DNA from: Gari tellinella
Lineage: Eukaryota > Mollusca > Bivalvia > Cardiida > Psammobiidae
Reading direction: 5' to 3'
Assembly (NCBI GenBank): GCA_922989275.2
Contig: OV277861.1
Location: forward strand, 22,784,479-22,848,478
DNA length: 64,000 nucleotides
Position numbers and translations under genes: made by a program. This document shows positions 9,902-63,066 of the stretch, one piece after another; the stretch's first letter is position 1, and each line of letters opens with the position of its first letter. The notes beneath the pieces are model-generated. The model had not been told where the DNA came from. It did no database searches and worked only from the letters and a program-made list of their open reading frames with translations.

Positions 9902-9966
9902 CAAACAGCTTTGATCCAGATGAGACGCCGAGTTACTCGGCGTCTCATCTGGATCAAAACTGTTTG
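9902..9966. repeat. Perfect-core hairpin module in an E-like remnant
   Basis: Arms CAAACAGCTTTGATCCAGAT and the complementary ATCTGGATCAAAACTGTTTG surround GAGACGCCGAGTTACTCGGC. It uses GATGAG where most copies have GATCAG, with CTCATC changed to match. The rest of 9432-10200 holds no gene. Confidence 0.75.
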
Positions 9967-10319
9967 AATACCTGATAAATGTTTGAAACAAAAATGCAGA
10001 TACTTCAACTTTGGTGATATATCTAGTTGTATAAAACACTCTTTGTGATAGTAGCATAGCAGTGGTAAGGTTGGGTGCAATATGCAAATGATTATTGGCT
10101 CAGAACTAACGCCGAATTACAATGTAGATCTACAAGTCATTTTATACAGAAGCGGATCTAAATATGAGTGTTGGGAGGACAGTCGAATATAATGAAGTGT
10201 GAAAGACGCTACTCTTTCCCAAAAAATGTTTTTATGCTGCAACTACATGTATAAAAGTGTGCATTAACCTCTCTAAATGAAAACTAGAGACGTTGCAGAA
10301 TTGTTTCCGTCTCACTGGT

Positions 10320-10640
10320 ATACGTCATACAGTGAGAAAATTATTAGCGTTGAGGAAATATTATTATTTCCCGTTTAACCCTTTACCCAATAACTCGTTT
10401 ATGACATTTAATGCAGGTGCTCACTTAAAGCAGGTTGAAAGTAAAGCAGAATGTGCCTTAAGGGTTAAACGCAAACAAAACGCACAGCAATACAATATGA
10501 CGATACCTGGCGTTCTTATAAAGAATCATATCCGCTCATACTCGGGATCGAAACCGGGTCGCAAGGTTTACAGTCATAGTCATACGCCCTACCGTATCAC
10601 CATAATAGCGCGCTGTACATAAACAACTCCAAATAATACA
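10320..10640. mobile_element. Degenerate A-like element interrupted by a TTAA insertion
   Basis: A-type sequence (TATTTCCCGTTTAA then ACGCAAACAAAACGC) is split exactly at its internal TTAA by the element at 10375-10468. The outer ends are degenerate, so the limits are approximate. Confidence 0.5.
10375..10468. mobile_element. 94-bp internally deleted G element inside A sequence
   Basis: It begins TTAACCCTTTACCC and ends AAGGGTTAA, with half a G hairpin (AGTAAAGCAGAATG) between. The host sequence on either side reads CCCGTTTAA / TTAAACGC, so TTAA was duplicated. This shows the target site directly. Confidence 0.75.
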
Positions 10641-11130
10641 ATTGTCTCGATTATTTATAGTGGAAACTGGCATTATCCGATTGATGTTTCGGGGAGAAAA
10701 GAATTTAATCATTAACTTAATAACCCCTGAAATTGTTAATGGATATTTCCTATTTCAAAATACGTCTAGTCATTTTTTTTTACTATTTAGGGGTGATTTT
10801 AACACTAGATATATTTTAAAATGGTAAACACTGTTTGCATAGTACACGTATTATCCTCACAGGTATACTGTTCGTAAATGACGAGTATAAGCAAAGTGAT
10901 TACTAAATGCAGGATAAAAAGGAGTTATGTATAACAGGTATATTATCCTGCATTAAGCAGTCACTGGTCTTCAGATATTTCCTCTATAACTGATCGTCTC
11001 GGATAAGGTACTTTAAAATGTTGACACTCACAGGAGAGCAAATATTTATGTAAAAGTATCTAACATTCGTATTTCTTGTATGATACTTCAATAGATTTAC
11101 ATATACAATGTACATGTACTGCAAACTCTA
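10640..11130. other. No gene seen
   Basis: AT-rich. It contains only an imperfect stem near 10903-10965 (ATGCAGGATAAAAAGGAG paired with the region before CTGCATTAAGCAG). No ORF with coding character. Confidence 0.4.
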
Positions 11131-11317
11131 CATAAACCTCTCTATTACGACCACTAAAATGAAGGCTTATCGATTGCATAAAAGACAGGTGACAGCTGAA
11201 AGCAAGGTTAAGGTAAAACGGAGCTTTCTGTTTTACTGTCAACTTGCTTTAACCAGTCACCTGTCGTAAACACACTATAACTAACACAATTTTGTGGTCG
11301 TAAAAAGTTGTTTACTG
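11131..11317. mobile_element. MITE family H (pogo/Tigger-like), copy 1
   Basis: Eroded ends resembling AAACCTCTCTATTACGACCA on the left and TGGTCGTAA...TTTACTG on the right, with flanking TA. The interior hairpin has a GAAAGC / GCTTTC stem (ACGGAGCTTTCTGTTTTAC). Confidence 0.6.
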
Positions 11318-11599
11318 TACATGCAGTCGATCTTGTATTAAGCGACCTCTCAGTGAAGTTGTATGAAGTTAACTGAAGACACATGGATGATAAATGCAAG
11401 GCTTGAGACAAATCATGCAGAACGCTTTTATGAGTTCTTTAATCATCAACGCCTTTGACTGCATCCCAACTATAACTGGTTGAATATTGCTGACTTTAGC
11501 CGCACAGAAGGGGATGCGATGATACATCATTAAAATGTGCATTAACTAGTAAAACAACAACAGCGTCATTAATTTTAGTTTAAGGTTGAGCACCCCGTA

Positions 11600-11770
11600 A
11601 AGGATCGGGCCTATGTCGGTCCAAATCGGAACTCTACAGGAAGAGATCGTCCATTCTCGTCAACTGCCGTTCTGTTCCGTACTAGAGCATTGTTCGGAAC
11701 AACCCGGCAGTTGACAATAATGGTCGAGCGCTGTACGTCGATTACCGATTTTGGTCCGATCAGGGTTTAT
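11600..11770. repeat. Foldback element
   Basis: GGTCCAAATCGG pairs with CCGATTTTGGTCC at the outside and GTCAACTGCCG pairs with CGGCAGTTGAC inside. The loop is about 34 bases. No coding content; family not recognised. The remaining 11318-11990 has nothing else notable. Confidence 0.55.
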
Positions 11771-12098: not shown

Positions 12099-12291
12099 CA
12101 GTCGAACTTCGATATCTCGAACTCGCTTAACTCGAATTATCCGATAGTTCGACACATGGACTGCATTATTCCATACTCGGTTAGGTCGAACATACCCATA
12201 TTTCAAAGTTAAAACGTGGCTAAGCCACGTTTTAACTTTGAAATACGGGTATGTGCGATTTAACCGAGTTCGAGATATCGAAGTTCGACTG
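12099..12291. mobile_element. MITE family I (pogo/Tigger-like), copy 1
   Basis: CAGTCGAACTTCGATATCTC and its complement at the ends, TA on both sides, and a central palindrome around AAAACGTGGCTAAGCCACG. Such TIRs are typical of pogo/Tigger non-autonomous elements. Nested in D copy 1. Confidence 0.85.
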
Positions 12292-12300
12292 TACCTATAT

Positions 12301-15242: not shown

Positions 15243-15489
15243 CAGTGGAGAAACTGTTATTCTTTCCCGTTTAAACGCAAACGAAACGCAAACGCAAAGC
15301 ACTAAAACGCAGAAAAGTACAACTTTTGGACAATTCTAATAATTCATGTTTATCTTGGTGGCAAATAGTTTTGAGCCAGATCAGACGCCGGGTTACCCGG
15401 CGTCTGATCTGGCTCCAAACTGCTTGCATAGGAAATAATAGTTTTAGCGTAAACGCGTTTATTGGAAAAGAATAACGTTTTCTCCACTG
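15243..15489. mobile_element. MITE family A, copy 2
   Basis: TA-flanked CAGTGGAGAAACTGTTATTC with its complement at the right end. The central hairpin is intact. Confidence 0.88.
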
Positions 15490-16715: not shown

Positions 16716-16728
16716 ACGTTAGTTTTTT

Positions 16729-17187: not shown

Positions 17188-17433
17188 CAGTGGAGAATCT
17201 GTTATTCTTTCCCGTTTAAACGCAAACGTACGCAAACGCAAAGCACTAAAACGTAGAAAAGAACAACTTTTGGACAATTCTGATAATTCTTGTTTATCAT
17301 GGAGGCAAACAGTTTGGAGCCTGATCAGACGCCGGGTTACCCGGCGTCTGATCTGGCTCCAAACTGTTTGCATTGCAACTAATAGTTTTAGCGTAAACGC
17401 GTTTATTGGGAAAGAATAACAGATTCTCCACTG
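17188..17433. mobile_element. MITE family A, copy 3
   Basis: TA-flanked TIRs and a complete hairpin. First of three direct-orientation copies that bound the 657-bp tandem duplication. Confidence 0.87.
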
Positions 17434-17832: not shown

Positions 17833-18090
17833 TACAGTGGAGAATCTGTTATTCTTTCCCGTTTAAACGCAAACGTACGCAAACGTACGCAAACGCAAAG
17901 CACTAAAACGTAGAAAAGAACAACTTTTGGACAATTCTGATAATTCTTGTTTATCTTGGTGGCAAACAGTTTGGAGCCTGATCAGACGCCGGGTTACCCG
18001 GCGTCTGATCTGGCTCCAAACTGTTTGCACTGCAAATAATAGTTTTAGCGTAAACGCGTTTATTGGGAAAGAATAACAGATTCTCCACTT
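17833..18090. mobile_element. MITE family A, copy 4
   Basis: Same as copy 3, but with an extra GTACGCAAAC unit in the left arm and its last G changed to T (CCACTTTA). Confidence 0.86.
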
Positions 18091-18491: not shown

Positions 18492-18737
18492 CAGTGGCGA
18501 ATCTGTTATTCTTTCCCGTTTAAACGCAAACGTACGCAAACGCAAAGCACTAAAACGTAGAAAAGAACAACATTTGGACAATTCTGATAATTCTTGTTTA
18601 TCTTGGTGGCAAACAGTTTGGAGCCTGATCAGACGCCGGGTTACCCGGCGTCTGATCTGGCTCCAAACTGTTTGCACTGCAACTAATAGTTTTAGCGTAA
18701 ACGCGTTTATTGGGAAAGAATAACAGATTCTCCACTG
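18492..18737. mobile_element. MITE family A, copy 5, at the 3' end of the Cys-rich gene
   Basis: TA-flanked. Its right end lies 28 bases past the minus-strand stop codon at 18766. On the minus strand its TTCCCAATAAACGCG supplies an AATAAA (18711-18706), about 55 bases after the stop. Confidence 0.87.
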
Positions 18738-19196: not shown

Positions 19197-20643
19197 CTAG
19201 GAAATAAACGGTGAAAGTGTTATGTTTGCGCTAGTGCTCACATAATACATATGAGCCGCTGCCGTGTCATAAGAAAACCTGACTTATTGCATTGCAAACA
19301 GTGTAGATCATTGCCAGCCGCCGCGTCTTTGACGCGGCGACTGGCATTAATATACTCTTTTTGACACCCACAATCATCTAACGCATTGTATCTAAGGTAA
19401 TTGGCAATGTAGACCAAACTCAGATACAGAGTCTGGAATGGAATTGAAACGGTGCTTGGTATGTACAATGTTACAATGCAATACGTCGGTTTGCTCATGA
19501 CACGGCTCATATTCTAGTTTCCAGCATTGGAAGTGTTTACCCATTAAGCATAGTGTCTACCTAAGTGGCATTATCAAACCAAACAGTCTATACCCTGATG
19601 AGGCACGCGTCGTCTCATCTGGGTCTTCACTGTTTGATATATCACATAAAATATTTTGCTGCATGGACAAACCTACATCTAGGCATATATCGTTCATTCC
19701 AGTGGATAAAACGGCATGCTTTCCCGTTTAAGTTAATACATGTATACAGTGGAGAATCTGTTATTCTTTCCCAATAAACGCGTTTACGCTAAAACTATTA
19801 GTTGCAGTGCAAACAGTTTGGAGCCAGATCAGACGCCGGGTAACCCGTCGTCTGATCAGGCTCCAAACTGTTTGCCACCAAGATAAACAATAATTATCAG
19901 AATTGTCCAAAAGTTGTTCTTTTCTACGTTTTAGTGCTTTGCGTTTGCGTACGTTTGCGTTTAAACGGGAAAGAATAACAGATTATCCACTGTAGTAACG
20001 CATAAGTGAATCTACGAAATGTTGAAGAGACCAGTTATGGAAAAAGTCAACCTTTATTTTGGTAAGGTTGGCAAATGTATTGACGCCAGATCAGACGTCG
20101 GACAACTTGGCGTCTGATCAAGTTTCAAACTATTTATGATATTCATTGAAGTATTATTGCGTTGATTGTGAATGGATAAAGATTAGAAAACTTTAATCAT
20201 TCGTGTTTATACACAGATTCATTGCAATGAAAGATGAAAATGACAATATTCTGACAATTATGACTAATCATTTTAATCTGAGGGTCAAACAGTTTGAGGC
20301 CTGATTACCTTGCGTCCGATCTGGTTCAAAGCTACTTACAATGCAAACCTTTGATTTAGCATCAATGTATATATTGGGAAAGAATGACTTCTTTTCCAGT
20401 GTAAACTTTTGCAAACCGAACTTGATATTAATTAAAGTTTAGTCTGTATTACAACTCACCGAATTTTGCGCCAAAGGGATAAAGCTTTCCTTTCCATTCA
20501 CAACCGTTAGCAGCGGTAGGCGGGGCAGGGTCGGGACTGCTCGTAGCGGATTTCATGCGTTTATAGCTAATGGGCAATCTTCCAGCCTCCGTCATCGAGA
20601 TACAGAAAAGCAGAACCATCAGGAATGCTAAAAAGTAAACCAT
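18766..20643 (-). CDS. Secreted two-module WCYG cysteine-rich protein (two exons)
   Basis: Joining exon 1 (20643-20460) and exon 2 (19196-18766) gives 204 aa. Residues 1-20 are a hydrophobic signal peptide (MVYFLAFLMVLLFCIS). Two copies of a module follow: C, x-x-x-G-K-x-[YF]-P, a G-Y-D-rich turn, W-C-Y-G-x2-C, x3-G-x-V-x2-W-D-x-[FW]-x-C. Each has four cysteines. Module 1 is about 48-91 and module 2 about 115-159. A Thr/Pro linker (TTTSPPPPTPPPSTPTPPP) separates them and a second Ser/Thr/Pro stretch precedes a basic tail ending GKKP. Role unknown; an extracellular matrix, defence or adhesion role is possible. I do not recognise a named domain. Splice sites are GTGAGT/AG with matching phase 1. 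Confidence 0.8.
19251..19510. mobile_element. MITE family D, copy 2 (in the Cys-rich gene intron)
   Basis: ATGAGCCGCTGCCGTGTCAT at the left, ATGACACGGCTCAT at the right. Asymmetric hairpin near the left: GCAAACAGTGTAGATCATTG with GCCGCCGCGTCTTTGACGCG. About 260 bp, the family's normal size. Confidence 0.83.
19747..19992. mobile_element. MITE family A, copy 6 (opposite orientation, same intron)
   Basis: TA-flanked. It reads TTCTTTCCCAATAAACGCG first, so it is inverted relative to copies 3-5. The hairpin has one extra mismatch (CCCGTCGTCTG). Confidence 0.87.
19993..20440. other. Intron remainder with worn hairpin cores
   Basis: Degenerate modules near 20080-20130 (GACGCCAGATCAGACGTCGG / GGCGTCTGATC) and 20288-20340 (CAAACAGTTTGAGGCCTG). 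Nothing else is seen before exon 1 of the Cys-rich gene. Confidence 0.45.
20460..20643 (-). CDS. Cys-rich protein exon 1 (signal peptide, start of module 1)
   Basis: From ATG 20643-20641 to the donor GTGAGT at 20459; 61 codons plus one base. It ends inside module 1 at KLYPFGAKF. The frame stays open upstream through the adjoining TTAA MITE, giving extra in-frame Mets (MKELNIFYM...; MFSTLAM...), so the true start could be up to about 40 codons earlier. ATG 20643 is preferred because it is the first outside the MITE and gives a normal signal peptide. Confidence 0.75.
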
Positions 20644-20910: not shown

Positions 20911-21171
20911 ATGAGCCTTGCCGTGACAAAACCTGCCTAATTGCATTGCAACATTACAGACCAAGCACCGTTGGCATCTCAGGCTCTTCATCTGAGTTTG
21001 GTCTTTACTACCAAATGTCGTTTATACTATAGCTACATAGAATGCTTTAGGTGCATGTGTGTGTCAAACAGTGTAGATCAAGACCAGCCGCCGCGTCTTT
21101 GACGCGTCGGCTGGCCTTGATATACACTTTTTGCAATGCAATAAGGCAGGTTTTGTCATGGCACGGCTCAA
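20911..21171. mobile_element. MITE family D, copy 3
   Basis: ATGAGCCTTGCCGTGACAAA and its complement TTTTGTCATGGCACGGCTCA. The hairpin lies towards the right end: CAAACAGTGTAGATCAAGAC with GCCGCCGCGTCTTTGACGCG. Confidence 0.85.
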
Positions 21172-26428: not shown

Positions 26429-26674
26429 CAGTGTAGAAAACGTTATTGTTGCCCGTTTAAACGCAAACGAAACGCAATCGCATTGTAATAAAATGTAAAA
26501 AATAACAATATTTGGCAACTATGACTCTTCATTTCTATACGAGTGGCAAATAGTTTGGAGCCTGGTCAGACGCCGGGTTACCCGGCGTCTGATCTGGCTC
26601 CAAACTGCTTGCAATAAAAATAATAGTTTTAGCGTAAACGCGTTTATTGGGAAAGAATCACGTTTTCTCCATTG
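26429..26674. mobile_element. MITE family A, copy 7
   Basis: TA-flanked, with CAGTGTAGAAAACGTTATTG and TTTTCTCCATTG as slightly worn TIRs. Hairpin intact. A run of 14 G follows at about 26679. Confidence 0.83.
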
Positions 26675-28226: not shown

Positions 28227-28458
28227 CAGTGGAGAATGTGTTATTCTTTCCCAATAAACGCGTTTACGCTACAACGTTTATTTCCACTGCAAACAGTTTG
28301 AAGCCAGATCAGACGCCGGGTAACCCGGCGTCTGATCAGGCTCCTAACTGTTTGCAACCAAGATAAACATGAATTATCAGAATTGTCTAAAAGTTGCACT
28401 TGTTTTGCGTTTGCGTTTCGTTTCGTTTAAACGGGAAAAAATAACGTTTTCTCTACTG
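28227..28458. mobile_element. MITE family A, copy 8
   Basis: TA-flanked, CAGTGGAGAATGTGTTATTC and TTTTCTCTACTG. Orientation as copy 6. Hairpin intact. Confidence 0.85.
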
Positions 28459-34718: not shown

Positions 34719-34964
34719 CAGTGGATAAAACGTTATTCTTTCCCAATAAACGCGTTTACGCTAAAACTATTATTTCTTTTGCAAACAGTTTGGAGCCAGA
34801 TCAGACGCCGGGTAACCCGGTGTCTGATCAGGCTCCAAACTGTTTGCCACTCAGATGAAAATAAATAGAGAAAATGTCAAAAAGTTGTTATTTTCTACAT
34901 TTTAGTGTTTTGCGTTTGCGTTTCGTTTGCGTTAAAACGGGAAAAAATAACGTTTTCTTCACTG
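34719..34964. mobile_element. MITE family A, copy 9
   Basis: TA-flanked CAGTGGATAAAACGTTATTC with TTTTCTTCACTG. The hairpin is intact with one G-T change (CCCGGTGTCTG). A second worn A end (CGTCTTCTCCACTG) follows at about 34988. Confidence 0.84.
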
Positions 34965-35485: not shown

Positions 35486-35731
35486 CAGTGGAGAAAAGGT
35501 AATTCTTTCCCAATAAACGCGTTTACGCTAAAACTATTATTTGCAGTGCAAACAGTTTGATGCCCGATCAGACGCCGGGTAACCCGGCGTCTGATCAGGT
35601 TCCAAACTGTTTGCCACCAATATAAATATGAATTATCAGAATTGTCCAAAAGTTGTACTTTTCTACGTTTTAGTGCTTTGTGTTTGCGTACGTTTGCGTT
35701 TAAACGGGAAAGAATAACAGCTTCTCCACTG
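35486..35731. mobile_element. MITE family A, copy 10
   Basis: TA-flanked, CAGTGGAGAAAAGGTAATTC and GCTTCTCCACTG. Hairpin arm GATGCCCGATC is altered on one side only. The 35130-35485 spacer before it holds an F-like remnant. Confidence 0.85.
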
Positions 35732-36365: not shown

Positions 36366-36725
36366 CAGTGCCCCCTCCCTATAACGGCCCTCCCTATAAC
36401 GATTCCCTCCGTACAACAACGATTTCTGCTGTTCCCACAAACAAGACAAAATTTACGTATAATACTTTCACTGCTGCAATATCGTCTGCTTCAAATTGTC
36501 GTCTGCTATTTTTTTCTCAGTTACATATTGGTCCTTTGAAGAAATATAATAACGAGTGCAAAACATTTTGAATCCAGATCAGACGCCGCATTACGCGGCG
36601 TCTGACCTTGATTCAAACTGTTTGCACTCTGAGGGTATTAGTTTTCCCTCCCTACCATAACTCCCTCCGAACAACGTACATTATAAATGTATCCAATTTG
36701 GTGCTGTTGTAGAGAGGGTGCACGG
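36366..36725. mobile_element. MITE family J, copy 2
   Basis: CAGTGCCCCCTCCCTATAAC at the left; GTTGTAGAGAGGGTGCACGG at the right; TA on both sides. Body: ATCGTCTGCTTCAAATTGTC and a hairpin with GAATCC arms around GACGCCGCATTACGCGGCGT. Confidence 0.8.
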
Positions 36726-49800: not shown

Positions 49801-52800
49801 ATAGTTCCAATATATACCGTAATGAATATGTGTCATATTTAATACTTTCCTTAGTCTAGCAGTTGATAGCTTAAAGCAGGCTAAAAGTAAAGCAGAATGC
49901 GCCATATGGCGCATTCTGCTTTACTTTCAACCTGCTTTACTTGGTCACCTTTCTTCAATACTAGAAATAGGCTATCAGGTAAAGGGTTAAGGTTGCATGA
50001 CTGAATAGATATCGATAACAGCGTCAAACAGTTTTGGTCCTGATCAGACGCTGCATTACGCGGCCTTTGATTAGGACCCAAATTGTTTCCAAACGCACTT
50101 TTAGGCGTCATTGAGAGTGAAATGGTAAATTTAATACCATAGGAAAGCCGGTGTTTCTCTCAATACACACATCAGTGCTAAATGAGTTGTAAACAGGTTG
50201 GAATCAGATTAGGTGCCGGCTAACCCGGCGTCTAATAAGGTCCCAAACTGTTTGCTTCTCAAAAAAGAATTCATTGTAGGATTCTTCAAAAACTGTTATT
50301 TTCTATAGCGTATTAGATTTATATTGGGATGACTTTTAATACCATTTAACCCATTACTCAAAATATTTTTTTACACCTTTTATTTTTTCTCCAATGAAGA
50401 AAATAGTTCCACATTATACGGCCATGACTATGTTTCATAAGAAATATTTTCTATAATCTAGAAGACTATAGCTTAAAGCAGACATAAAGAAAAGCAGAAT
50501 GCGCATTGTGATCTAATCATGGATTCCTTGTGGTCCGTTTCATAAGACTTCGTACGACAAAAACGGTCGTAAGTCAAAACTTTAAAGTACATTTAATTCC
50601 CGAATTCTCTATCTAATTCTGTCTTGACGATTTCAAAGAGTTGTCAAAAGACAGGATTATATGGAGAAATGAATAATAATTGATACTTTTTAAATATGAT
50701 TTACGACAGCATTTGTCGTACGAAGTTTTTCTACTGGCTGATTTTCTTTCTTCAGATTTACACCATGCCCGAGTATCTTGAGCGGAGATTTGGCGGTTCT
50801 AGGCTAAGACTGTACCTCAGCCTTGTATCTACTCTACTCTACATCGTCACTAAAATATCCGTAAGCTCATTCTCGTTTAACCATTCTATTGCCAAATGAA
50901 TTTAACCTTAGTGTTTACTTTGTAATATATAAGACACTGTTGACTTGTAGGCATGACAAGCAATATAGACCCTGATCAGAAACTGCGTTGATAATAGGAC
51001 GTCTGATACATGTAGGGGCCACAGTGTTTGTACATATTTTGGTGACAGAAGGGAAATTCTAAAAATTAGCATTTTCAGTTATTTTTTCAACCATTTTATA
51101 TATATATAAATAGTATCTTAAATTCACATCTCTTTTGATGTTGTTCATAATGTTATAAAGTAATATAGTAATATTTGGATTCCTCATCGCTTATATGGTG
51201 GATAATGTACGAAACTGAGTTGCCAAGTTGCACATCTATCTCAACTCGGCCTACAAGTTCATCATTACATTCAATCATAGGAGAGGTTACATCAATGTGT
51301 CAGTATATAGATAAACCTTTTCAGCAGCTAGTTGAATTAACATACAGTAAAACCTCTCTATTACGACCACTAAAAACGAAGGTTAATACATTGTATGAAG
51401 TACAGGTGACAGTTAAAGCAAGAAAACAGTAAAACAGAAAGCTCCTAATGGAGCTTTCTCTTTTACTGTCACCTTGCTTTAAGCAGTCACCTGTCGTTAA
51501 CACCTAATACTTTAACAAACATTAATGGGTGTAATAGAGTGGTTTTGGCCAATGTTTAACCATCTCACCGTTATAGGCGAAAACAGTCGCCGTAACTATT
51601 TCCTCCCTGAAACTTTATATGGACCATACCAGTCGGTTCCAATTAAATATATAGTTCATTTCTGATTATTAAGAATTGTTTTTGCCAATGTATTGCAATA
51701 TGAAAAACAGTGCAGATCTTATAAGAAGGCACCTTTATGAACCTTCGATATGAATATTAAAGTTTGCAAAGGACATATGTACTATTCACCGGTACATTGT
51801 TTGCAAAGGATGCATATATATATGCATATATGTATATAAATAAACATGCGTGTCAGGGGTTTAAATGATTAAACAAGGGCAAACAGTTTGGAGCCAGGTC
51901 AGTAACTCGGCGTCTGATCAGGACCCATATTATTAGACAGACGATTCGATATTTTTTATTCAAACTGTCTCAAGCCGAAATTTGATACAAATTAGGTTGC
52001 AACCTGTCATAAACTCTACATACACAGTAAATCCTCTCTATTACGACCAATAAAGCGAAAGCTAATTGATAATGTTAAAGACAGGTGACAGCTTAAAGGA
52101 AAGTGACAGTAAAACCGAAAGCTCCTTTAGGATCTTTCAGTTTTAATTCCACCTTGCTTTAAGCTATCACCTGTGCCAAATACATAATGATTACATAATT
52201 GAGTGGTCGGAAAAGTGAGGTTTTACTGTATATCGTCTTTTGAGCGGTCGCTGATTACAGTTTGACTGTACATAGAAAGGCAACAAAACTTGATAGATTG
52301 ATCATCTACGGTTTTTTTTTCTCAAGTGATTACACTTTTGTGACATTTGTGTCGTTGATTGCCTTTTCAAAATTAACTATGCCAGTCTCCATACTTTTTG
52401 TGGATACGCACTGGTTACATTTGAGAAATCTATATTCTTTCCCAATAAACGCGTTTGTGTTAAAGCAAGTACTTCCACTTCAAACAATTTTGAACCAGAT
52501 AAGACTTCCGGTAACCAAACCATAGGCTCCAAACTGTTTGCCACTTGTTTGAAATTGAATCGTCAAAAGTTTAAAAAAGTTGTAATTTTCTACATTGAAT
52601 TGCATTGCATTTGTGCAAAGTTCGTTTAACAATAACGTCTTCTCCATTGTAACGATGAACGAATAGTGTTATAACATATAAAAAAATAACAATACTTCTC
52701 CGTATTTTTATGAAAGAAATAGAGGATATTGTATGAGTGTTCATTATTTATCATTTTTAATAAACGAGTTGACTAAAATAATATGACGCGAGCCTTGGCG

Positions 52801-54997
52801 AGCGTCATATTCATTTTAGTCAACGAGTTTATTAAAAATGATAAATAATGAACACGAATGTGATATTCTATTTATCACATTACAAGTTCAAGCACCTATT
52901 AAATTGATTTGAAGCCGTAGTTTGTAGACCCTACGCTTTATAGATTTTCCGCCAAACGTTACGTTGTTTACGTTAACGTCATAGTAAATGACGTCATTTG
53001 GCAACCCGCTACATGTAGCGCTTATGGACGAACAAGTTAGGCCGGAGCCCAAAAAACGATATTCCACTAGTGGATTACGATATTTATACAATCGCTTTAT
53101 GCAACTCCCAGACCGCAAATTATGTGATAAATATTGTTAATAGTCCACGTTTATGGTAGATCCTGTCTTAACTTTTGTTTTATATACAACCAGATCTCTG
53201 TTAAACGAAAATTAAATCAAGAAACCTAGCATCTTATAAGATCTGTTCCATCTTAATGCTGGTTAAAGAAATGCAGAAAGCTCCTGTAGGAGCTTTCTGC
53301 ATTACTTTCAACCTGCATTAAGCTAGACGCCATCTATCACAAAAATAACAGTTATTATTATATTTTCATTATTCGTATAACACAAGTTTGTCTGTGCTGT
53401 CAAGTTGTCATGGTATACCTGTTTTTATCTGTCTGTTTTATTTATCAAGGTGGATATTTTTGCCGGCGCGGTGTTCATTCAGCAGGCCCTGGGGTGGAAT
53501 ACCTATATCGCTATATCAGCCTTATTGGTCGTCACGGCCATTTACACTATCATAGGTAAATATCTACCTCTATCAATCCAGATGACTTTCTGACCAAAGC
53601 TAAAATCAAAATACAAATCAGAATACAAAGACATTAAATGGTTACAGAGGCAGTACTAAGATAGTAGAAAATAAGGCAGTGTGACTGAAGAAATTTCAAA
53701 ACGAGTGTGAAACAGTGTGGGTCATGATCAGACGTCGCGTTACGTTAGGTCATATAATGCCTTTCATATCATCTCTTATATATTCCATTAAGGAATGGCG
53801 TTGCGCTATTTTAATGTTATTTTTGTATATGTATGTATGTATATTGGATGTGCAATGATTAGATGTAAATAAAGATTCTACCTATAGCACCGATGAATGA
53901 TAAGGTGATGATGAGGGGTTGTTTCAAGAAGACGTAATAAATGGCTTAAACATAATAGCTTAAAAATACAAGGTGTGTCACACTCTTGTGACAACTCTAA
54001 GTCGTAAATTTAACATAAAACTATAACAAGTTTATACACCCTACAGCACTTACTGTTTTACAATGGTCTGCTCTGGTTTCCATTGATATGGGTTAGATAT
54101 TGGATAATAAGCATTTTTTTCATCAAATGTGTTTGTGTTAATAAGTATTGCTTATTGCTACATTTCGAGATAGATCAGACGCCGAGTTACTAGGAGTCTG
54201 TCCATGCTCCACAATGTTTGACTCTCTGATATCTTCATCTTTTAGAAACAAGTTTTATTATATTCATTTAATGCATTACATTTTCTTTTAGTTTCGTTTT
54301 TAAAACAGACGTGCAAGCGTTTTTCTCTCTCAACATATACATGATATCATTAGCTGTTTAGATTCTTTATGCACGTTATAAATACAATTAAATTCCAATA
54401 TAATTATAATAAAATGTCTCGCTTTCGATTTTATGATTACGTACAGTAAAATCCCTCTATTACGACCACTTAATTGTGTTAATTAGTAGGAGTTAAGAAC
54501 AGGTGACTGCTTAAAGCAAGGTGACAGTAAAACAGAAAGCTCCTGTAGGAGCTTTCTTTTTTACTGTCACCTTGCTTTAAGCTGTCACCTGTCTTTTATA
54601 CAACCAATTAGCCTTATTTTAGTGGTCGTAATAGAGAGGTTATACTGTACTATATAATCAACATGACAGTCAGGTTTTCTTCATTATGCATTTGCATTTC
54701 AAGAGGCAGTTTGTGGCAACTGTTGAAACAGTTTAGTTTCAGATTCTGAACTGAATTCAGACCGTTTGACACTCTCATAGCATTTACGGCAAAATCTATC
54801 TAACCAATTTGTGCCTTGCATCCCAAACATGGGGCATAGGCAACACGTGCACTCATAGATCAGACGCCGCTTTAGTCGTAGAAGTAGTTATTTTCATGTA
54901 GTAAAAGCAGCAGTAGCAGTAATAGTTGTTGTAGTATTAATGGAAGCTGTAGTGGTATTAGTAGTAGTAGTAGTAGGAATAGTGATAGTAGTTGTTA

Positions 54998-55210: not shown

Positions 55211-55244
<34 letters not shown>

Positions 55245-58200
55245 TGTAATAGTAGTTGTAGTAGTAGTAGAAGTAGTTGTAATAGTAGTTGTAGTAGTAG
55301 TAGCTATAGCAATAATAGAAGTAATAGTAGAAGAAACAGTAGTAGTAATAATACCAGTAGTAGTAGTAATAGTAGTACATGTAGTGGTAATAGAAGAAAT
55401 AGTACAAGTAGTAGTAGTAGCAGTATTTATAATTGTAGTATTTGTTGTAAAAGTATTGCTATTATACCAGATAGGTGCAATGGTAACGATGTGTGCTACT
55501 GTCGTTGCTATGTTTGTTTCTATTTTCAGGCGGTCTTTCAGCTGTTATTTTCACAGACACATTACAGACTGTTGTAATGCTGACAGGCTCCGTGATTCTC
55601 GCCGTGTTAGGTAATATTAATGAACACATCCTATTCTGAATATTCATATATAAAACCCCGCTTACTTTGAGCATCTGTTATCTTTAAATATTACAATGAC
55701 AGATAAAAATTCTCCCAAACAAATTGTAGACTCTTGTTAGACATATCTTATAAGAAAACATTGCAGATCCTGATAAGACAGCTCCTTCAATAATTTCTGA
55801 TCTTGGTCAACACTGTTTTCAAAGTACGTCAGTCAGTATACGTATTAAATTATAATTAGTCAACCCATTACCCCATTAAAAACCCTTTTTACGCCTCAAA
55901 TTTATTCCTTCTTATAAGAAAATAGTTCCACTTTACACAGTCATGAATATGCAAAATAAGAAATAGTTTCTATATCTTAGCAGATAGTAGTTTAAAACAG
56001 GCTGAAAGTAAAGGAGAATGCGATTTAAGGCGCATTCTGCTTTTCTTTCAACCTGTTTTAAATGGTCATGTGTCTTCAAAACTAGAAACAGGCTATCGGG
56101 TAATGGGTTAAGCTATTTTGGCTTTGTAAGTAAAATATGAGTATCAAACAGATCTGGATGGGATTCCAATTTATGAGTGATGAGTTGTTTGGTCTTTTGG
56201 AATTGTCTTGAAAAGACGTTTCCAAATGGATCTCGCAAGACTGGAAAAGATGGAGATATAAATAGTAATTGGGAATTTTATAATCAGACTTACGACCGTT
56301 TTTGTCGTATAACGTTTCGTAAGACGGTCCTGGCTTCAAACTGTTTGCAGTTTAAATCAAAACAACTGTTCACCATGTTCAAATGGTATTGGTATTTCAA
56401 TTTATTGCATTGTGTGTTGGTTTTTTGTTTGTTTTTTTGTTGGGGTCGTGTAAACGGGAAGGAAAATCAACAACTATGTGTACTTAAAATTACCAAGTTT
56501 TAAGCTTATTTGATATCATACAGTGGAGAAAACACTCAACTATAAAACGTTGTTCTTTCCTTACGCTAAATCTATTATTTCCAGTACAAACAGTTTGCAA
56601 CCCGGCGTCGGATCAGGCTCCAAACTGTTTGCCACTCAGCTTAATATTAAAAGTAATAATTGTCAAACAGATGTCCTTTTCGACATTTTATTGCATTCCG
56701 TTTGTGTTTCGTTTGCGTTTAAACGGGAAAGGATAACGCATTCTCTACTTAGTTACATCACAAACAAAACGGCTATAAATCTGCCTTGCTATGTGTAACA
56801 TAAGTGTTGTCTTCTCAACTACACTGTATGTTTGCACAGTGCTCCCTCTCTACAACGCCCCCCCCCCCCAACAGCACGACTCCCTCCTTACAACGACTCC
56901 CTCCTTCTCTGTAACGTCTCCCACTATACAACACAGACATTTTGTCTCCCATTGGATGTCGTTGTAGAGAGGGAGCGCTGTAATCCCTGTTTTTCCCGGA
57001 TAAGATTGCAGTAAAATGCAGAAAATGACAATTCCGTTTAAAGGTTAACAGTGTTTTAAAATCCGAGTATGAAACATATCATTAATGATATTACAAACTT
57101 TAACATTACTGTCCGCATTTCAGCTTACATTAAAGTCGGTGGCCTTATGGCCTTACAGGCTAAGTATATGGAGGCAATACCATCTACGTACGACCCGGAC
57201 TCGAACTCGACCTGTGGACTGCCGAGAGAGGACGCCTTCCACATATTCCGTGACCCAGTCAACAGTGACCTGCCATGGCCCGGGGTAGTCGTGCGCTCCA
57301 CTCTAGTATCACTGTGGTACTGGTGTTCTGACCAGGTTATGTATTGATATTGATTGTATATCGAACCTCGATTAATTGAAATCATCAATTTTATTTCTCC
57401 GCTGACTAAAATAAATTTATAAAGTCATGAAATTGTTCCATAATATAGTTTCCCAATCCTAGCCAATGCTAGCTTAAAACATGCTGAAAATAAAGCATAA
57501 TGTACCTTAAGGCATTTTCTGCTTTACTTTTAACCTGCCTTAAGTGATCACCTGTCTTCAAAACTAAAACCAGACTATGGGGTAACAGATTAACCTTCAA
57601 TTGTATTTGCCAATCTCAACTTTTCATTAACCCTTTGCAGGCTACAGTATCATCTGCTGCAGAGTTGTAATCTAAGAAAGTTTAAAGATCCAATAATGTC
57701 GTTTAGATTCAGTAACCTTAACAAACGGGTTAAATGGTTTTCATCCTGATGCCATGATACGCTTTGCAAACGTAAACAACATACAGTGGAGAATCTGTTA
57801 TTCTTTCCCAATAAACGCGTTTACGCTAAAACTATTATTTGCAGTGCAAACAGTTTGGAGCCAGATCAGACGTCGGGTTACCCGGCGTCTGATCAGGCTC
57901 CAAACTGTTTGCCACCAAGATAAACAAGAATTATCAGAATTGTCCAAAAGTTGTTCTTTTCTACGTTTTAGTGCTTTGCGTTTGCGTACGTTTGCGTTTA
58001 AACGGGAAAGAATAACAGATTATCCACTGTAAGCTACAAGAGCTTTTGAACCAACTATTAATTACATCTATAGCAACATGATAAAGCAAGAAAATATAAC
58101 CCATGATTGTTACAGATCTTTTTTAGAATATTTGTTTGCAACCAATGCAGACCTACACAGGAGGGTTCCAGTAGTAGCCCACCTCTCTGGTTCTATACTG

Positions 58201-61200
58201 CAAGCAAGTGATGTATCTACTTGGACCAATCACTTTAGTTTGATTCAATTCATAGCGTAAAACAACACCTAGTATGCAGATAAATAATATACACCATGCT
58301 ACATATACAATATGTTTCGTTTCTAAACATATTTAAAGGCTGTGTGAATGATGCTAAAAACTGAAATAAGAATATTTATATAAAAAAAACTGACAGGCAA
58401 ATGGAACAGAAATGCGTGACTAATAAGAATTGGTTTAAAACAGTAGATCACATCACATCAGATTGGGGGGGGGGGGGGGGGGGGGGGGGGCTGATCAGCA
58501 ACTTCCACACAATTAACTTCCACACACATGAAAACTTAACACTCTACTTTAAGAAACTTTATTCAGAAAATATGTAACTCGTCCAAGCAGTTTGGGCCCA
58601 AATTAAACACCGCTTAACGCGGCGATAGATCTGTGTCCAAACCACTGGATATTAGAAGATACCTTAGACTATTTAACTTAGACAATGTAAAAACTACAAT
58701 TAAAAATTTTAAGGCATAAAACTATAGTACAATAAGCTTTACTGTTTGCAAATCTGTTGAAGTCGCTACTAGCCGGCAAAGGGTTAAAGGAAATTGTACA
58801 CCAAATAAATTATGTTCTTCTTTGAATGTGCATCATATAAATGTCCTTACTGGGAACTAAAGCAAATTTATGATATAGTTTACTTCCGGTAATTCCAGGT
58901 GATAGTACAGCGCACCCTGGCGGCTAAAAACATCGCCCACGCTAGAGGCGCCGCCATCACTGCCGGATATTTGAAGATTCTCCCATTGTTCATCATTATC
59001 TTCCCTGGAATGATCAGCCGAGTTCTCTACACAGGTGAAGCTTATGATATAATGATTTGTTTTATTCAGCAAAGACATACATGTCTATCAGCATTATATA
59101 ATACAGATAAAGACGAGTAATGAGGTAATTTAACAGTACTGGGTACTTAACTGAATCCTATAAGACACATACAGTGGAGTAGGTATTATTCTTTCCCGTT
59201 TAAACGCAAACGAAACGCAAACGCATTGCATTAAAACCGACAAAAGGACAAATGATTGACAATCATGACTTTTTATTTTAATCAAAGTGTCAAACAGTTT
59301 GGAGCCTGATCAGACGCCGGGTTACCCGGCGTCTGATCTGGCTCCAAACTGTTTGCAAAATATGTAATAGATATAGGGTAAACGCGTTTATTTGGAAATA
59401 ATACTGTCTTCTCCACTGTACATGGCAGTTATAATCGATATTTGGATGAAGCGAAAACCATGTCCAAATGCAGATTGTTTCTTCTATACAAATCTAATTG
59501 GACTCAGTATTGGGCTAAATACTGTTAAATTACTCGTCTTTATTCAAATCAAGGCAAAATAACAACTCAGGTTAAGTCATTGAAAACTTTCAAAATATAG
59601 AAATAATTTAAAAACGAATGTTGAATCTCTTTGAGCGAAATTACGTCGAAATATAGTCCGGTCTATAGTCGTGTATACATAGTGACTTCAATTCCCACTG
59701 AACACCGATGGTTCGACTATATAGTGACGTCATTAGACCAGTGAACCTTAGTTTCCATTGGTTCGACAAACGGTGTTCGAACTTTAATTAAACAAACAGC
59801 CTGCTCAGCAATTTGCACTCTGGAAGATTCTTAGCACACAACTCTTACCAAAGTGTCGGGAGAGTTGTCATTTCTAATACAGTGGAGAAAACGCTGTTCT
59901 TTCCCAACAAACGCATTTACGATCAAACTATTATTTCCTTTGCAAACAGTTTAAAGCCTGATCAGACGCCGGGTAACCCGGCGTCTGAAAGGCTCCAAAC
60001 TGTTTGCCGCTCAGATTACAATGACTCGTCAGAATTGACAAAAAGTGGTAATTTTCTACATTTTAGTGTCCTGCGTTTGTGTTTCATTTGCGTTTAAATG
60101 CGCTTTTATGTATATATATATATAGTTTTAACCTTTTCTTTTCTACATTTCATTTCATTGATTTCTTTTTCGTCTCATTTATACGGGAAATGCTCACTGT
60201 ACATCACTGATCAATTCAACTTTTCTCGACAACAGGTACCTGTCAATTCATTAGGATTTCCAACATTATTCTTTTCGCACAGACAGTGATGACCTGTCAC
60301 CTTTAGGCGCAGGGTCATTAGTACATGTATATATTAGATCATGAATATGCCATTTTTCATGATAGGTTTACGTCATACAGACTAGTTGTACTCAGGCGGT
60401 AGCCTTTGCTCGGCAAATTAATGGCAAACGTCCCTAATTAGACATTTGTGATCAAAATAGCCTTCTTTTTATTTCAGTCTCATCATGGTTCATATATAAT
60501 ATATATATATATACATTTAAACATAAAACAACATCAACCAATCCGTTCAAATAAGAATGATAAGGGACTATGAAGTACATGTAATTATCTCAGCAAACTA
60601 TGACCTAAAAGGCATATTTCAAGTATCAGTAATTTAAAAAACAAAATATATAACCATGTAAATTATGCTGATCTAAAACATAAGATATGCCATACATTTT
60701 ATTATTGAAATCTGATAAAAGAAATGCATTTATATACCTTATTAAGTAATAGTTTTAATATATCAATTCTTACTATTGATCAAATCAACGATTTGATTAA
60801 CACATTTAAACGGACGAAATAATAATGTTAGAGATAGAAACAAAACAGTTGATATACACAAAACATGATTACATGAGCAGAACAGGACTACATGTATACA
60901 TGTATATATAACATATATTATGTATTTAATTACATAGTCTGAGATATTGGGCCACAGAAGAACTTCGCCAGATTACTCAAATTCTTTCATAAATCACTTT
61001 GTTTTCAGTAAGAATCGATAATTCGAGCTCTTTTCTGTCCAACGTACCCGAATTTGTCAGTTAAAACATGGATTATCTATGTTTTAACTTTGAAACACAC
61101 GTGCAGGTTCGATTTCAGCGTGTCCAAGCTTTTGGGGTCCAGTAAACATTAACGAACGTTTGACACTTAGTGCATAAAAATGTTTCAACATCATAATCAC

Positions 61201-61462: not shown

Positions 61463-61564
61463 GTAAGACAATCAATCATTGTCATAATTATCTCTATTTT
61501 ATCAACCTTCATCACGCACTTCACTACATAGCTGGAATGGTGTTATATACTTATTATGTCTAGC

Positions 61565-61630
61565 AAAAAGTTTGTATCCTGATCAGACGCCGAGTAACTC
61601 GGCGTCTGATCAGGAAACAAACTTTTTGAC
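61565..61630. repeat. Bare hairpin module in SLC5 intron 10
   Basis: CAAAAAGTTTGTATCCTGAT, CAGACGCCGAGTAACTCGGC, then GTCTGATCAGGAAACAAACTTTTTG. The outer arms changed together (AAAAAGTTTG / CAAACTTTTT). Confidence 0.82.
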
Positions 61631-61861
61631 ATCCGTCTTAAGGTTTCTTGAAATTTGAAATAATAAAATCTTAGATTTTTTGTAGACTATACGTTAAGCC
61701 TTTTAAAGCATATTTGTTGTGTCTGTCATATATACAGTTTTGGTCCAGATAAGATGCCAAGTGACTTGACATCTAATCTGAATCCACATTGCTTTGCGGT
61801 ATTCTATACTATACTATTATGGTATTGTCTAAGTATAGTCTGTACATAACAAATAATTGCA

Positions 61862-62198
61862 CAGTGCTCCCTCTCTACAACAATATCCATTGGGAGAGAA
61901 ACATAGTGTGTGCATTGTTCGGAGCGAGTCGTTATAGGTAGGGAAAATTAAGACTGGACTAACATTTGCAAACAGCTTGAATCCAGACCAGGCGCCGCGT
62001 GACGCGAATTTGATCTGGATTCAATCTGTTTGTCACTCTTCATTATATCTATTCTATCAAATGTCCACTAATATGTAACTTTAAGAAAATACAGCAGACG
62101 ATATTACAGCAGTAAAAGCATTAGACATAATTGTCCTGTTTAGGGCACTACGGCAAGGGTCGTTGTCAGGAGGGAGTCGTTGTTGGGAGGGAACACTA
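61862..62198. mobile_element. MITE family J, copy 4
   Basis: CAGTGCTCCCTCTCTACAAC at the left; GTTGGGAGGGAACACTA at the right. Hairpin GCAAACAGCTTGAATCCAGA ... ATCTGGATTCAATCTGTTTG. The body CAGCAGACGATATTACAGCA matches E-family motifs. Confidence 0.78.
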
Positions 62199-62655
62199 TT
62201 TCACTGGTTACAGTTTCTATGTGAGATTTATCTCGGTCATGATTGTGCAGCAGTCATACTAGAATTTCATTACAAAGTAGATGGTTGTTCTTTCCCAGTA
62301 CACGTGTGTGTGTTCCAAACACTAATCTCTCCCATGCAGTTCAGGGTAACTCGGCTTCGAACCAGGCTCATGGCAGTTTGGATTCGAAATAACAAAATCA
62401 GTTACATTTTCGATTGAATGATGGATAGAGTTGGGTTTCGCGGCACCCCGACACAAACATATATAATGGTCATAATTATAGAAAATAATGCTGTTTTAAA
62501 CGTTTGTGTTGTATTTTGCATTTTAATAGAAGTGCGTGGCTATAAAACATGTAATTTTTGCATAAATAGCAAGACTATGGTCTTTATAAATGGGTTACAT
62601 GTAAACTACAAGATAGTGAAGCAGAGTATTTCTGCATTTCTGTCATAATATTTTA

Positions 62656-63066
62656 ACGGAGAATACAATATAATATTCTTCCCCGTTTAAACCAAACTAA
62701 ACGCAAACAATAGTAAAATTATTGTATCCATTTCAAACAGTTTGGCGCCAGTTTTAACATTTTCAACAGTTTATTGAATTGTATTTGCGTTTAACCCTTT
62801 CACTCTCAATGACGCTTAAAAGCGCGTTTGCAAACAGTTTGGATCCTGATCAGACGCCGCGTAACGCGGCGTCTGATAAGGATTCAAATTGTTTGACACT
62901 AGTTTTGAAATTTCTTTAGTCATACTGCCTTATTTTTTAACTTTGAAACAACATTGCAGACAACAAAATTGAAGCAGACGACAATGAAACGGTGAAGAGG
63001 TAAAAACCTCACGAAAAAAATGATCATGAAAGGGTTAAACGGAAGACAGTAACGCCTTCTCCACTG
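62656..63066. mobile_element. A element carrying an E element in its TTAA
   Basis: CGGAGAATACAATATAATATTCTTCCCCGTTTAA starts the host and CGCCTTCTCCACTG ends it. E copy 2 (62791-63038) is inserted at GCGTTTAA / TTAAACGG, with TTAA on both sides. Confidence 0.7.
62791..63038. mobile_element. MITE family E, copy 2
   Basis: TTAACCCTTTCACTCTCAAT to GATCATGAAAGGGTTAA. Hairpin GCAAACAGTTTGGATCCTGA, ACGCCGCGTAACGCGGCGT, a slightly worn right arm. Right side GCAGACAACAAAATTGAAGC, AGACGACAATGAAACGGTG. Confidence 0.87.

Follow-up and report, generated by a model that had tools for sequence, protein, structure and literature searches.

Within the 64-kb stretch of DNA that we analysed (the window), which is the scope of all our evidence on the elements, a 65-bp palindrome of the form CAAACAGT…GATCAGACGCCG…ACTGTTTG, here called hp1, lies inside MITEs with a TA target (families A and J), inside MITEs with a TTAA target (E and F) and between D-type ends. 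A search with an HMM made from 12 oriented copies yields 76 copies scoring at least 15 bits and 68 scoring at least 20 bits, against one match of at least 15 bits (15.1) and none of at least 20 in 20 dinucleotide shuffles. The exact outer arms CAAACAGT/ACTGTTTG frame 23 palindromes in the window and 0 in 50 shuffles. A preliminary description of this DNA had proposed that the hairpin is shared by the A, J, E, F and D families and had counted about forty GACGCCG-type copies by eye. The count agrees with the 34 occurrences of GACGCCG and 32 of CGGCGTC, the ends and targets are as it stated, and the sharing is confirmed and enlarged. The extent it gave, 9902-62890, is indeed occupied by hp1 but is too narrow, as copies of at least 15 bits reach from 6485 to 63313; weaker ones start at 4866.

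A second, different hairpin of about 72 bp, hp2, is present in 20 copies in the window and occurs both in family K, with a TTAA target, and in family L, with a TA target; the preliminary description had missed it. The window has 45 strong hairpins, of which 34 are hp1 and 6 are hp2 (40 together), and one mononucleotide shuffle of it contains none. The elements are as follows.

57784..58029, +, A element of 246 bp, oriented short arm, hairpin, long arm; hp1 57847-57911; TA on both sides, CAGT...ACTG
9135..9380, -, A element; hp1 9253-9317
15243..15489, -, A element; hp1 15362-15426
17188..17433, -, A element; hp1 17306-17370; belongs to a set of three spaced by about 650 bp
17835..18090, -, A element; hp1 17963-18027
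18492..18737, -, A element; hp1 18610-18674
19747..19992, +, A element; hp1 19810-19874
26429..26674, -, A element; hp1 26547-26611
28227..28458, +, A element; hp1 28290-28354
34719..34964, +, A element; hp1 34782-34846
35486..35731, +, A element; hp1 35549-35613
38082..38327, -, A element; hp1 38200-38264
38392..38637, +, A element; hp1 38455-38519
43134..43385, +, A element; hp1 43197-43261; left side AA, not TA
59172..59418, -, mosaic A element; hp1 59291-59355; flanks 23% off the A consensus
43856..44094, +, E1 element (TTAA); hp1 43892-43955; CCCTTTCAC...GAAAGGG-TTAA, left side TTTAAA
62795..63034, +, E1 element; hp1 62831-62895; TTAA on both sides
40223..40428, -, E2 element; hp1 40328-40392; TTAA-CCCTTAGCCCGC...GCAGGCTAAGGG-TTAA
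15853..16057, +, E3 element; hp1 15891-15955; TTAA-CTCTTACCATGC...GCATGCAAAGAG-TTAA
26878..27127, +, E4 element; hp1 26913-26977; left side GTGAA, right side TTAA
37102..37344, -, F element (TTAA); hp1 variant with another tip 37205-37270
41896..42138, -, F element; hairpin 41999-42064, same sequence as at 37205
63147..63387, -, F element; hairpin 63250-63313
42663..43011, -, J element (TA); hp1 42851-42915 and an E-type long arm within J ends
36366..36725, -, J element; hp1 36560-36624
61862..62190, +, J element; hp1 61969-62032; right end degenerate, the real end a few bases on
20911..21170, -, D element; hp1 variant 21065-21133; ends ATGAGCC...GGCTCA
54444..54647, +, L element (TA); hp2 54510-54581; TA-CAGTAAAATCCCTCTATTACGACC...ACTG-TA
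52025..52228, +, L element; hp2 52092-52163; TA abuts the right end alone
51345..51545, +, L element; hp2 51412-51483; left side TA, eroded at the right
55864..56107, +, K element; hp2 55991-56062; CCCATTACCC...GGGTAATGGG-TTAA, left side TCAA
49765..49986, +, K element; hp2 49870-49941; no left end found
57388..57595, +, K element; hp2 57473-57544; ends inexact

Neighbouring elements in the window overlap, which confounds the clustering of flanks by pairwise matches.

Ends and targets

The elements measure about 231-256 bp in A, 205-250 in E, 241-243 in F and 349-360 in J (two copies with both ends). Most are flanked on both sides by TA or TTAA, and they show the short length, inverted ends, target duplication and multiple copies of MITEs. 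The target type, TA or TTAA, is a property of the transposase; Kolobok elements likewise target TTAA. The ends read TA-CAGTGGAGAA in A, TA-CAGTGCTCCCTC in J, TTAA-CCCTTTCAC in E, TTAA-CTCTTTCCTCCC...CAAAGGG-TTAA in F and ATGAGCC...GGCTCA in D. Duplication of TTAA is found for E, F and K, with TTAA on both sides at 40223, 15853, 37102, 41896, 62795 and 63147, TCAA/TTAA at 55864 and an imperfect left side at 43856 and 26878. Duplication of TA together with CAGT ends is found for A, J and L. TA-CAGT stands at the left end of 14 of the 15 listed A elements (AA at 43134; at 26429 it is read one base ahead of the listed start), and TA lies on both sides of the J elements at 42663 and 36366 and of the L element at 54444, and on one side of those at 52025 and 51345. 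In so repeat-rich a window a generic scan for TSDs gives much background, and we relied on it solely where the ends match. The E termini are CCCTT (CTCTT in E3), F has CCCTTT at one end and CTCTTT or CCCTTT at the other, and K has CCCATT, CCCTTT or CCCTTC; the terminal motif of piggyBac-like TTAA MITEs is given as CC[C/T]T (PMC2872659).

By eye, no transposase was recognised among the 20 stop-to-stop frames of at least 110 aa, two of which alone were scanned against Pfam; a protein-level search with a frame of the A element returned one candidate and no match. A LINE in the window has a close relative in the clam Mercenaria.

When three to five hand-picked ends per family are compared, they fall into the classes {A,J,L} and {E,F,K}; in this set two of the five L ends, and one of the five from J, begin one base late. 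Within the TA class J-L reaches z 6.6, and the likeness is weak for A-J (z 2.5) and A-L (z 2.9); within the TTAA class it is z 4.8 for E-F, 3.7 for E-K and 3.4 for F-K, and all nine cross-class pairs stay at z 0.2 or below. An alternative placement, in which three of five K ends are off, gives J-L 5.6, A-J 2.2, L-A 3.0, E-F 4.7, E-K 2.9, K-F 2.0 and J-E 0.3, and yields the identical two classes. Each of the two hairpins is found with both end classes, so that all four combinations are present, although for K both ends were located in one element only. Thus, barring convergence, at least one exchange of cores or ends probably took place.

The hairpins and their arms

The hp1 stem is about 31 bp long with a tip of 3-4 nt. 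Its designation as a central palindrome was loose, since it lies off-centre (E1 is laid out as 36-64-139 and A as 63-65-118). Core identity among family representatives is 0.74-0.91 excluding F and D and 0.61-0.72 in comparisons that involve these two. Compared with the 32-nt consensus arm, the D hairpin arm is identical at 23 positions and the F arm at 24 (63250) or 23 (37205), identities that 0 of 20,000 shuffles reach. F departs from hp1 chiefly in the apical part, as had been claimed for both families; the tip of D, however, is not foreign. In the apical part, 9 of 11 bases of the F tip are like the L (hp2) tip, and a fraction of 0.00013 of random 11-mers matches so well. This is suggestive of a hybrid hairpin, a likeness which was picked post hoc and which we do not claim.

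The block common to the families extends a few bases beyond the palindrome. Among 11 hand-picked family representatives, TG stands immediately 5′ of hp1 in 10, NCAC follows 3′ in seven and the full NCACTC in four, and direct repeats adjoin hp1 in none. Wherever the ends of a family are known, NCAC lies on the side of the longer arm; F has TCAT there. For hp2, an HMM made from K only scores the L hairpins at 23.5-36.0 bits (maximum of 10 shuffles 12.5), and one made from L only scores the K hairpins at 23.1-38.1 bits (shuffle maximum 8.2). K and L also share GTCACCTGTC after hp2, with z 6.6 for the right flank and -0.1 for the left.

Farther from hp1, the long arm of J is related to the long arms of E1, E2 and E4 (z 5.4, 6.5 and 3.4) and unrelated to those of E3 and E5 (z 0.5 and 1.7); in the same comparison the J short arm is related to no E arm. 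Within the TTAA group, related short arms join E1-E2, E1-E4, E1-E5, E2-E3, E2-E4 and E4-E5. More than 8 nt from the hairpin, no arm of A, D or F is related to an E arm above z 3. An apparent colinearity of the A and E long arms seen by eye (GTCAG, ATTTT, TTGCA) did not hold up in this comparison (A-E1 long arms, z 0.9). The short arms of A against E1, E2 and E3 are borderline (z 2.4, 2.9 and 2.1), and given these values A may share a larger piece with them or descend from the same ancestor.

Divergence and descent of the cores

In 24 hand-picked A copies (274 of 276 pairs compared, two having too few columns) the core is 6.6% off the consensus and the flank 15.0%. The ratio of core to flank divergence is 0.44 (bootstrap 95% 0.30-0.57), and the core is also less diverged than the TIRs (ratio 0.48, 0.31-0.65). 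Outside A, the core is less diverged than the flank in 18 of 24 within-family pairs, that is, in 3/3 for each of E2, F, J, K and L, in 3/6 for E1 and in 0/3 for D. The three E1 exceptions involve the copy at 29765, whose core carries a deletion.

The two arms of the hairpins covary. Among 20 hand-picked hp1 rows, 92.8% of 637 cells are paired, against 28-41% in slid pairings, and 19 of 32 pairs have a double change; none of 500 shuffles attains any of five measures. For hp2 (nine rows) 15 of 34 pairs have a double change, and 0 of 500 shuffles attain four of the five measures. These shuffles ignore relatedness, and the hand-picked sets consist mostly of clean copies and largely omit degenerate ones, which biases them to clean hairpins. 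Among the A copies themselves compensated double changes are no more frequent than expected (six doubles, two of them paired, 3.8 expected, besides 78 single changes), so inserted copies do not appear to be maintained in place; in-place repair of the palindrome among A copies was considered and leaves no signal in this count.

When 39 hand-picked cores are placed on an unrooted tree, a single branch sets off each of A, F, J and D from all the rest (support 100/96, 100/99, 81/90 and 93/85). The core tree agrees with the families, which argues that transfers were few and old. Since the TTAA cores surround A and J on this tree, TTAA to TA is the likely direction for hp1. The preliminary description had held exchange unnecessary if core and terminus trees agreed and the shared core came down to 8-10 bases of chance similarity; the trees do agree, and the similarity across families is 61-91% over 65-69 bp. 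Its proposal that the hairpin moves between elements thus stands for old and rare exchange, to which the four combinations and the E-type arm of J point, and not for ongoing exchange, as core and ends travel together within the window.

Origin of the shared cores and known systems

We suggest, with a probability of about 0.6, that hp1 and hp2 are exchangeable MITE cores which were passed on in old transfers and whose hairpin is kept for a benefit in cis. This reading of the sequence would proceed in the following steps. A few old transfers moved cores between the end classes. In the simplest route a MITE would capture the inside of another one inserted into it, the inner ends being lost; the J arm related to TTAA elements could be the remnant of such a capture. 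Each new combination of core and ends would then have multiplied with its own transposase. The putative role of the hairpin is to help the element in cis, whatever the transposase, possibly by folding in single-stranded DNA at the replication fork and so joining or exposing the ends. The transposase-independent advantage proposed earlier is compatible with the arm covariation and the low core divergence in most families, but gene conversion or symmetrising copying errors could give the same pattern.

More tentatively, the hairpin cores may constitute a separate kind of selfish module, which raises MITE amplification whatever the transposase and passes between superfamilies; we regard this as possible rather than probable. 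If true, the success of MITEs in such genomes would hinge on the core and not on the ends. The crossing between TA and TTAA, the low core divergence in most families and the paired double changes argue that the inside of a MITE can be a selected, inherited unit. This offers a direct test for the old question why few short non-autonomous elements become hugely numerous.

The cores might also be exchanged and yet inert, each family deriving from a single master copy, or a few, which happened to hold a hairpin. Palindromes are known sites of recombination and template switching; template switching would then restore the symmetry and gene conversion between hairpins keep divergence low. The A element at 59172, with a core that agrees in all 65 positions with that of young A copies and flanks 23% off the A consensus, has the look of a conversion tract limited to the palindrome. 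Its TIR-versus-arm mismatch, taken as an age clock, may fit a replacement of the core, or the TIRs were perhaps already mismatched in the parent. Deletions in hp1 also tend to break near the middle of the palindrome (20 of 46 breakpoints within 8.5 nt of it, against 12.7 expected, p 0.016), a weak signal; the placement of gaps in palindromes is ambiguous. However, it is much to ask of chance founders that two unrelated hairpins should each be found with either class of ends and should make up 40 of the 45 strong hairpins; frequent in-place correction should leave the compensated doubles of which A has no excess; and with family-specific cores in A, F, J and D conversion would need to halt at the family borders. 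We give this explanation a substantial but clearly minor chance.

It is unlikely that the hairpin is transcribed as a microRNA-like or other hairpin precursor of small RNAs, with a product that helps the elements or does too little harm for the host to remove it. The lengths of stem (about 31 bp) and tip (3-4 nt) fall in the size range of pre-miRNAs and the covariation preserves the fold, but a near-perfect stem equally fits a DNA cruciform, self-targeting small RNAs would hurt the element, and the Rfam matches to one A element all lie far under the gathering scores. About equally unlikely is a single lineage without exchange, in which ends and target preference drifted and the core stayed recognisable. 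This probably holds within the TTAA group with its related E short arms, and both the borderline A short arms (z 2.1-2.9) and the constant facing of the NCAC side (TCAT in F) would suit it; across the classes the ends of A, J and L are unlike those of E, F and K, the hairpins cut across this split, and the four combinations observed contradict it. Quite improbable is a hairpin that inserts into MITEs as a mobile unit. Its strongly conserved outer arms CAAACAGT/ACTGTTTG could act as ends, but the 11 representatives have no direct repeats by the hairpin and similar short flanks across families, J carries more than the hairpin, and no hairpin-less join of the inner flanks was noticed among the A matches (without a dedicated search). 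Chance or convergence of short palindromic motifs, for which one could invoke that the outer arms by themselves are 8 bp, is refuted by the shuffles of copy numbers and arm identities and by the shared flanks outside the palindrome.

For the exchangeable cores that we favour, a literature search, with subscription papers outside its reach, found no description of hp1 or hp2. Pattern scans gave 0 matches in genome contigs and 0, 2, 0 and 0 in viral contigs; the two viral matches are attributed to chance, as one arm only fits the hp1 HMM and the GC content is about 0.5.

Unrelated heads and tails surround a common central block in those SINE families that have a central domain in common (CORE, V, Deu and others). 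These differ from the MITEs with hp1 or hp2 in being retroposons whose block is no hairpin. MER6/MER6A is a Tc1/mariner MITE with a V domain that comes from a fish SINE (Luchetti et al. 2019, PMC6887750); here too a MITE acquired the conserved central domain of another element class and then spread it, but the donor is a SINE, one composite element and a variant are concerned, and the available part of the description mentions no palindrome. The pearl-family elements of bivalves are modular non-autonomous elements of molluscs as well, and DTC84 has a conserved palindrome near the repeat junction; as described in the portion available, their module is a satellite-related tandem repeat and not a shared hairpin core (PMC5139131). 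The MITE-like repeat 1 of Lucina pectinata (210 bp, 30-bp imperfect terminal repeats) has a 77-bp central segment which is self-complementary (96%), similar sequences being reported from other molluscs, and a second repeat has its own self-complementary segment and a short piece in common with repeat 1 (PMC4732748). In layout repeat 1 resembles the elements with hp1 or hp2; the accessible text reports that no target duplication was found and claims no sharing across superfamilies.

The closest precedent for shared cores is the CMITE families of the coral Acropora, which have different TIRs and a common 75-bp internal region which varies less between families than the TIRs do and for which a role in transposition was proposed (Wang et al. 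2010, PMC2872659). The cores described here are likewise alike across families whose ends differ, and to speak of an undescribed system, as was done at first, is too strong, since coral families sharing a conserved internal region have been on record since 2010. Nothing in the window significantly matches the 60-nt CMITE consensus (best E 1.8), and this consensus folds into short stems only, with neither hp1, hp2 nor a long hairpin, and words beginning with palindrom- or hairpin are absent from the main text of that paper. CMITEs use TTAA targets with piggyBac-like ends, thus one superfamily as far as described, whereas A, J and L have TA, and the two hairpins here each cross between TA and TTAA ends.

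Hairpin cores and the families that carry them

The window is eukaryotic, judged by a LINE frame and three tRNA-Thr genes, and its host would be a mollusc and probably a bivalve. Self-comparison of the window yields about a hundred short repeat islands. A palindromic hairpin of about 65 bp, hp1, is found there 76 times at a score of at least 15 bits and 68 times at a score of at least 20 bits, with a single match of 15.1 bits in 20 dinucleotide shuffles. Six hp1 copies (from families A, E1, E2, J, F and D) were folded as single DNA strands and gave energies of -30 to -41 kcal/mol (z -12 to -18). There are 45 strong hairpins in the window, 34 of them hp1, six hp2 and five others, and none in one mononucleotide shuffle of it. 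The second and different hairpin, hp2, of about 72 bp (CTTAAAGCA...TGCTTTAAG), was found among the remaining repeats, with 20 copies of at least 15 bits, where 20 shuffles reach 9.3 at most. As the preliminary description had claimed, one hairpin is common to MITE families with different ends: hp1 lies in A and J (TA target), in E and F (TTAA target) and in D. In 12 seed elements its distance to the element ends is 35-109 bp on one side and 102-194 bp on the other.

MITE families with a hairpin core
Family A: TA target, CAGTGGAGAA ends, about 246 bp, hp1; 24 near-complete copies used
Family J: TA target, CAGTGCTCCCTC ends, about 350 bp, hp1; 3 copies
Families E1 to E4: TTAA target, ends mostly CCCTT, 205-250 bp, hp1
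Family F: TTAA target, 241-243 bp, hp1; 3 copies
Family D: ATGAGCC...GGCTCA ends, target duplication not settled, hp1
Family K: TTAA-type, CCCATTACCC/CCCTTTACCC ends, hp2
Family L: TA target, CAGTAAAACCTCTCTATTACGACC ends, hp2

A profile built from three K hairpins scores three L hairpins at 23.5-36.0 bits (maximum in 10 shuffles 12.5), and the reverse profile scores the K hairpins at 23.1-38.1 bits (8.2). We then compared the 27-nt ends, three to five per family. The TA-class ends are related to each other (J-L z 6.6; A-J and A-L weakly, z 2.5 and 2.9), and so are the TTAA-class ends (E-F z 4.8, E-K z 3.7, F-K z 3.4), while all nine cross-class pairs stay at z 0.2 or below. The hairpins cut across these classes, as hp1 is in A and J as well as in E and F, and hp2 in L as well as in K. 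Both classes of ends are thus found with both cores, in all four combinations, which calls for at least one exchange or else for convergence. This is the strongest single argument for exchange and it does not need a tree. Its weakest corner is K, for which both ends are found in one element (55864-56107) and one end in several.

Further features of the window
1108-4551: open LINE frame with RVT_1 and Exo_endo_phos domains (reverse transcriptase, endonuclease); a relative in the hard clam Mercenaria mercenaria has 68% identity over half the query, and other matches score better
4610-5154, 6943-6999, 53252-53322 and 63402-63477: additional hp2-like hairpins with flanks outside the K and L assignment; there may be more hp2 families
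9100-9431: family A element enclosed in another inverted repeat, which has TA-bounded GGTTAGACCATGGTTG ends and appears to be a different MITE
12175-12269 and 39542-39616: third hairpin (ACGTGGC..GCCACGT tip); the repeat around the latter copy begins TACAGTAAAACTT
12298-12513: array of 62 bp tandem units, next to the hp1 copy that lies in a family D element
17188-18737: three copies of family A at intervals of about 650 bp, whose surroundings are similar and include half-hairpins at 17595 and 18252; they probably arose by tandem duplication at this site
18766-19230 (-): open frame of two cysteine-containing repeats with Thr/Pro-rich linkers between them, without a Pfam match at 0.001
25654-25988: inverted duplication of sequence adjoining the hp1 copies 25589 and 25989; it surrounds a mini-element of some 85 bp with CAGTGGGGAA ends, in which an hp1-like arm is represented by its first bases only
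32874-35130: three genes for tRNA-Thr (AGT) at intervals of about 1.1 kb

Probable common origin and transfer of the cores

Read from the short side, the consensus of the shared hp1 block is (T)TG-hairpin-NCACTC. Of 11 family representatives, 10 have TG, seven have NCAC and four the full NCACTC; CCACTC also occurs in older A copies at the position of CCACCA in the A representative. The block is directional and slightly longer than the palindrome, and we therefore favour a common origin over a convergent palindromic site. Core identity over 65-69 bp is 0.74-0.91 among A, E1-E4, E2b, J and two unassigned copies and 0.61-0.72 in pairs with F or D. The F and D arms agree with the consensus arm at 23-24 of 32 positions, which none of 20,000 shuffles reached. 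For hp2, the sequence GTCACCTGTC directly to its right is common to K and L (z 6.6, down to 1.9 beyond 14 nt), and nothing is shared between them to its left.

The element arms beside the core were compared between families, leaving out the 8 nt closest to it. Among the long arms, E1-J (z 5.4), E2-J (z 6.5), E4-J (z 3.4) and E1-E2 (z 3.2) are related, and E3-J and E5-J are not (z 0.5 and 1.7). Related short arms are found for E1-E2, E1-E4, E1-E5, E2-E3, E2-E4 and E4-E5. Nothing above z 3 was obtained for A, D and F, the A short arms being borderline against E1-E3 (z 2.1-2.9), and the part clearly common in these three families is the hairpin block only. Between its ends J has the hairpin and a long arm resembling that of the TTAA elements, without their short arm. 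We therefore read J as a family which arose when a TA element captured a nested TTAA element whose inner ends were then lost.

The three F hairpins (37205-37270, 41999-42064 and 63250-63313) have hp1-like outer arms and an apex like the tip of hp2 in L (GCTCC); judged by sequence they could be hybrid hairpins.

A maximum-likelihood tree built from 39 hand-picked cores (65 columns, unrooted, 17 of 33 inner forks open) places A, F, J and D each on one side of a branch, with support of 100/96, 100/99, 81/90 and 93/85; the E1 and E2 cores do not lie on one side of a branch in this tree. The TA/TTAA label requires two changes, D and the unassigned copies being left out of the count. The A cores are placed among those of E1, E3, E4 and E5, and the J cores next to two of E2 type. 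On an unrooted tree with weak forks nearby, this suggests two separate transfers from TTAA to TA elements. Cores and ends agree at the family level, and thus the transfers appear to be few and not ongoing. Of the proposal that the hairpin moves between elements, exchange as such is supported by the four combinations and a continuing exchange is not.

Upkeep of the hairpin and its possible benefit

In 20 hand-picked hp1 copies, standard pairs fill 92.8% of the 637 pair cells, and both partners have changed in 19 of 32 pairs. None of the 500 shuffles attains any of the five measures, and pairing is 28-41% when the partners are slid. As relatedness is not preserved in these shuffles and a self-derived structure tends to beat its slid versions, we put the weight on double changes between families. 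In hp2 (nine rows, likewise hand-picked) 15 of 34 pairs show double changes; out of 500 shuffles none matches this on four of the measures, and 31 do so on the fifth, the number of pair types. Within A there are 78 single changes and six double changes against 3.8 by chance, two of the six paired. Double changes between families with no excess within A suggest that the symmetry is kept or restored in the multiplying lineages and not in inserted copies.

The A core diverges from the consensus by 6.6% and the flanks by 15.0% (ratio 0.44, 0.30-0.57); against the TIRs the ratio is 0.48 (0.31-0.65), and the core is the less diverged in 22 of 24 copies. In the other families, divergence of the core is below that of the flanks in 18 of 24 within-family pairs and thus in most families (E2, F, J, K and L 3/3 each, E1 3/6, D 0/3). 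The extreme case is the A element at 59172..59418 (-), whose flanks are 23% off the consensus and whose core is identical at 65/65 positions to at least three young copies.

Such a pattern is predicted both by selection in active lineages and by gene conversion. The likeliest benefit to the element appears to be structural and to act in cis, its main rival being a neutral cargo combined with conversion and template switching. An RNA product of the hairpin is a much less likely possibility; the matches of one A element in Rfam fall far below the threshold. The near-perfect stem with its tip of 3-4 nt would fold in single-stranded DNA, the folded hairpin could bring the element ends together or expose them, and a fold which exposes ends might aid any cut-and-paste transposase.

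Comparison with known systems

In the literature searched we found no description of hp1 or hp2. The closest precedent for swapped cores are the coral CMITEs, for which the excerpts of PMC2872659 describe TIRs that differ, an internal region better conserved than these TIRs and one CMITE with the internal region of another family. According to these excerpts the CMITEs are flanked by TTAA, whereas the families of the window have TA and TTAA targets, and the core printed there corresponds to neither hp1 nor hp2 and does not form a long hairpin. MER6 offers a further likeness, as a MITE took up the central domain of another element (PMC6887750, in excerpt). A repeat of Lucina pectinata with a 77-bp palindrome (PMC4732748) may be a relative. 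What the window adds to CMITEs, MER6 and the Lucina repeat are hairpin cores that appear to have crossed between TA and TTAA ends, and this twice.
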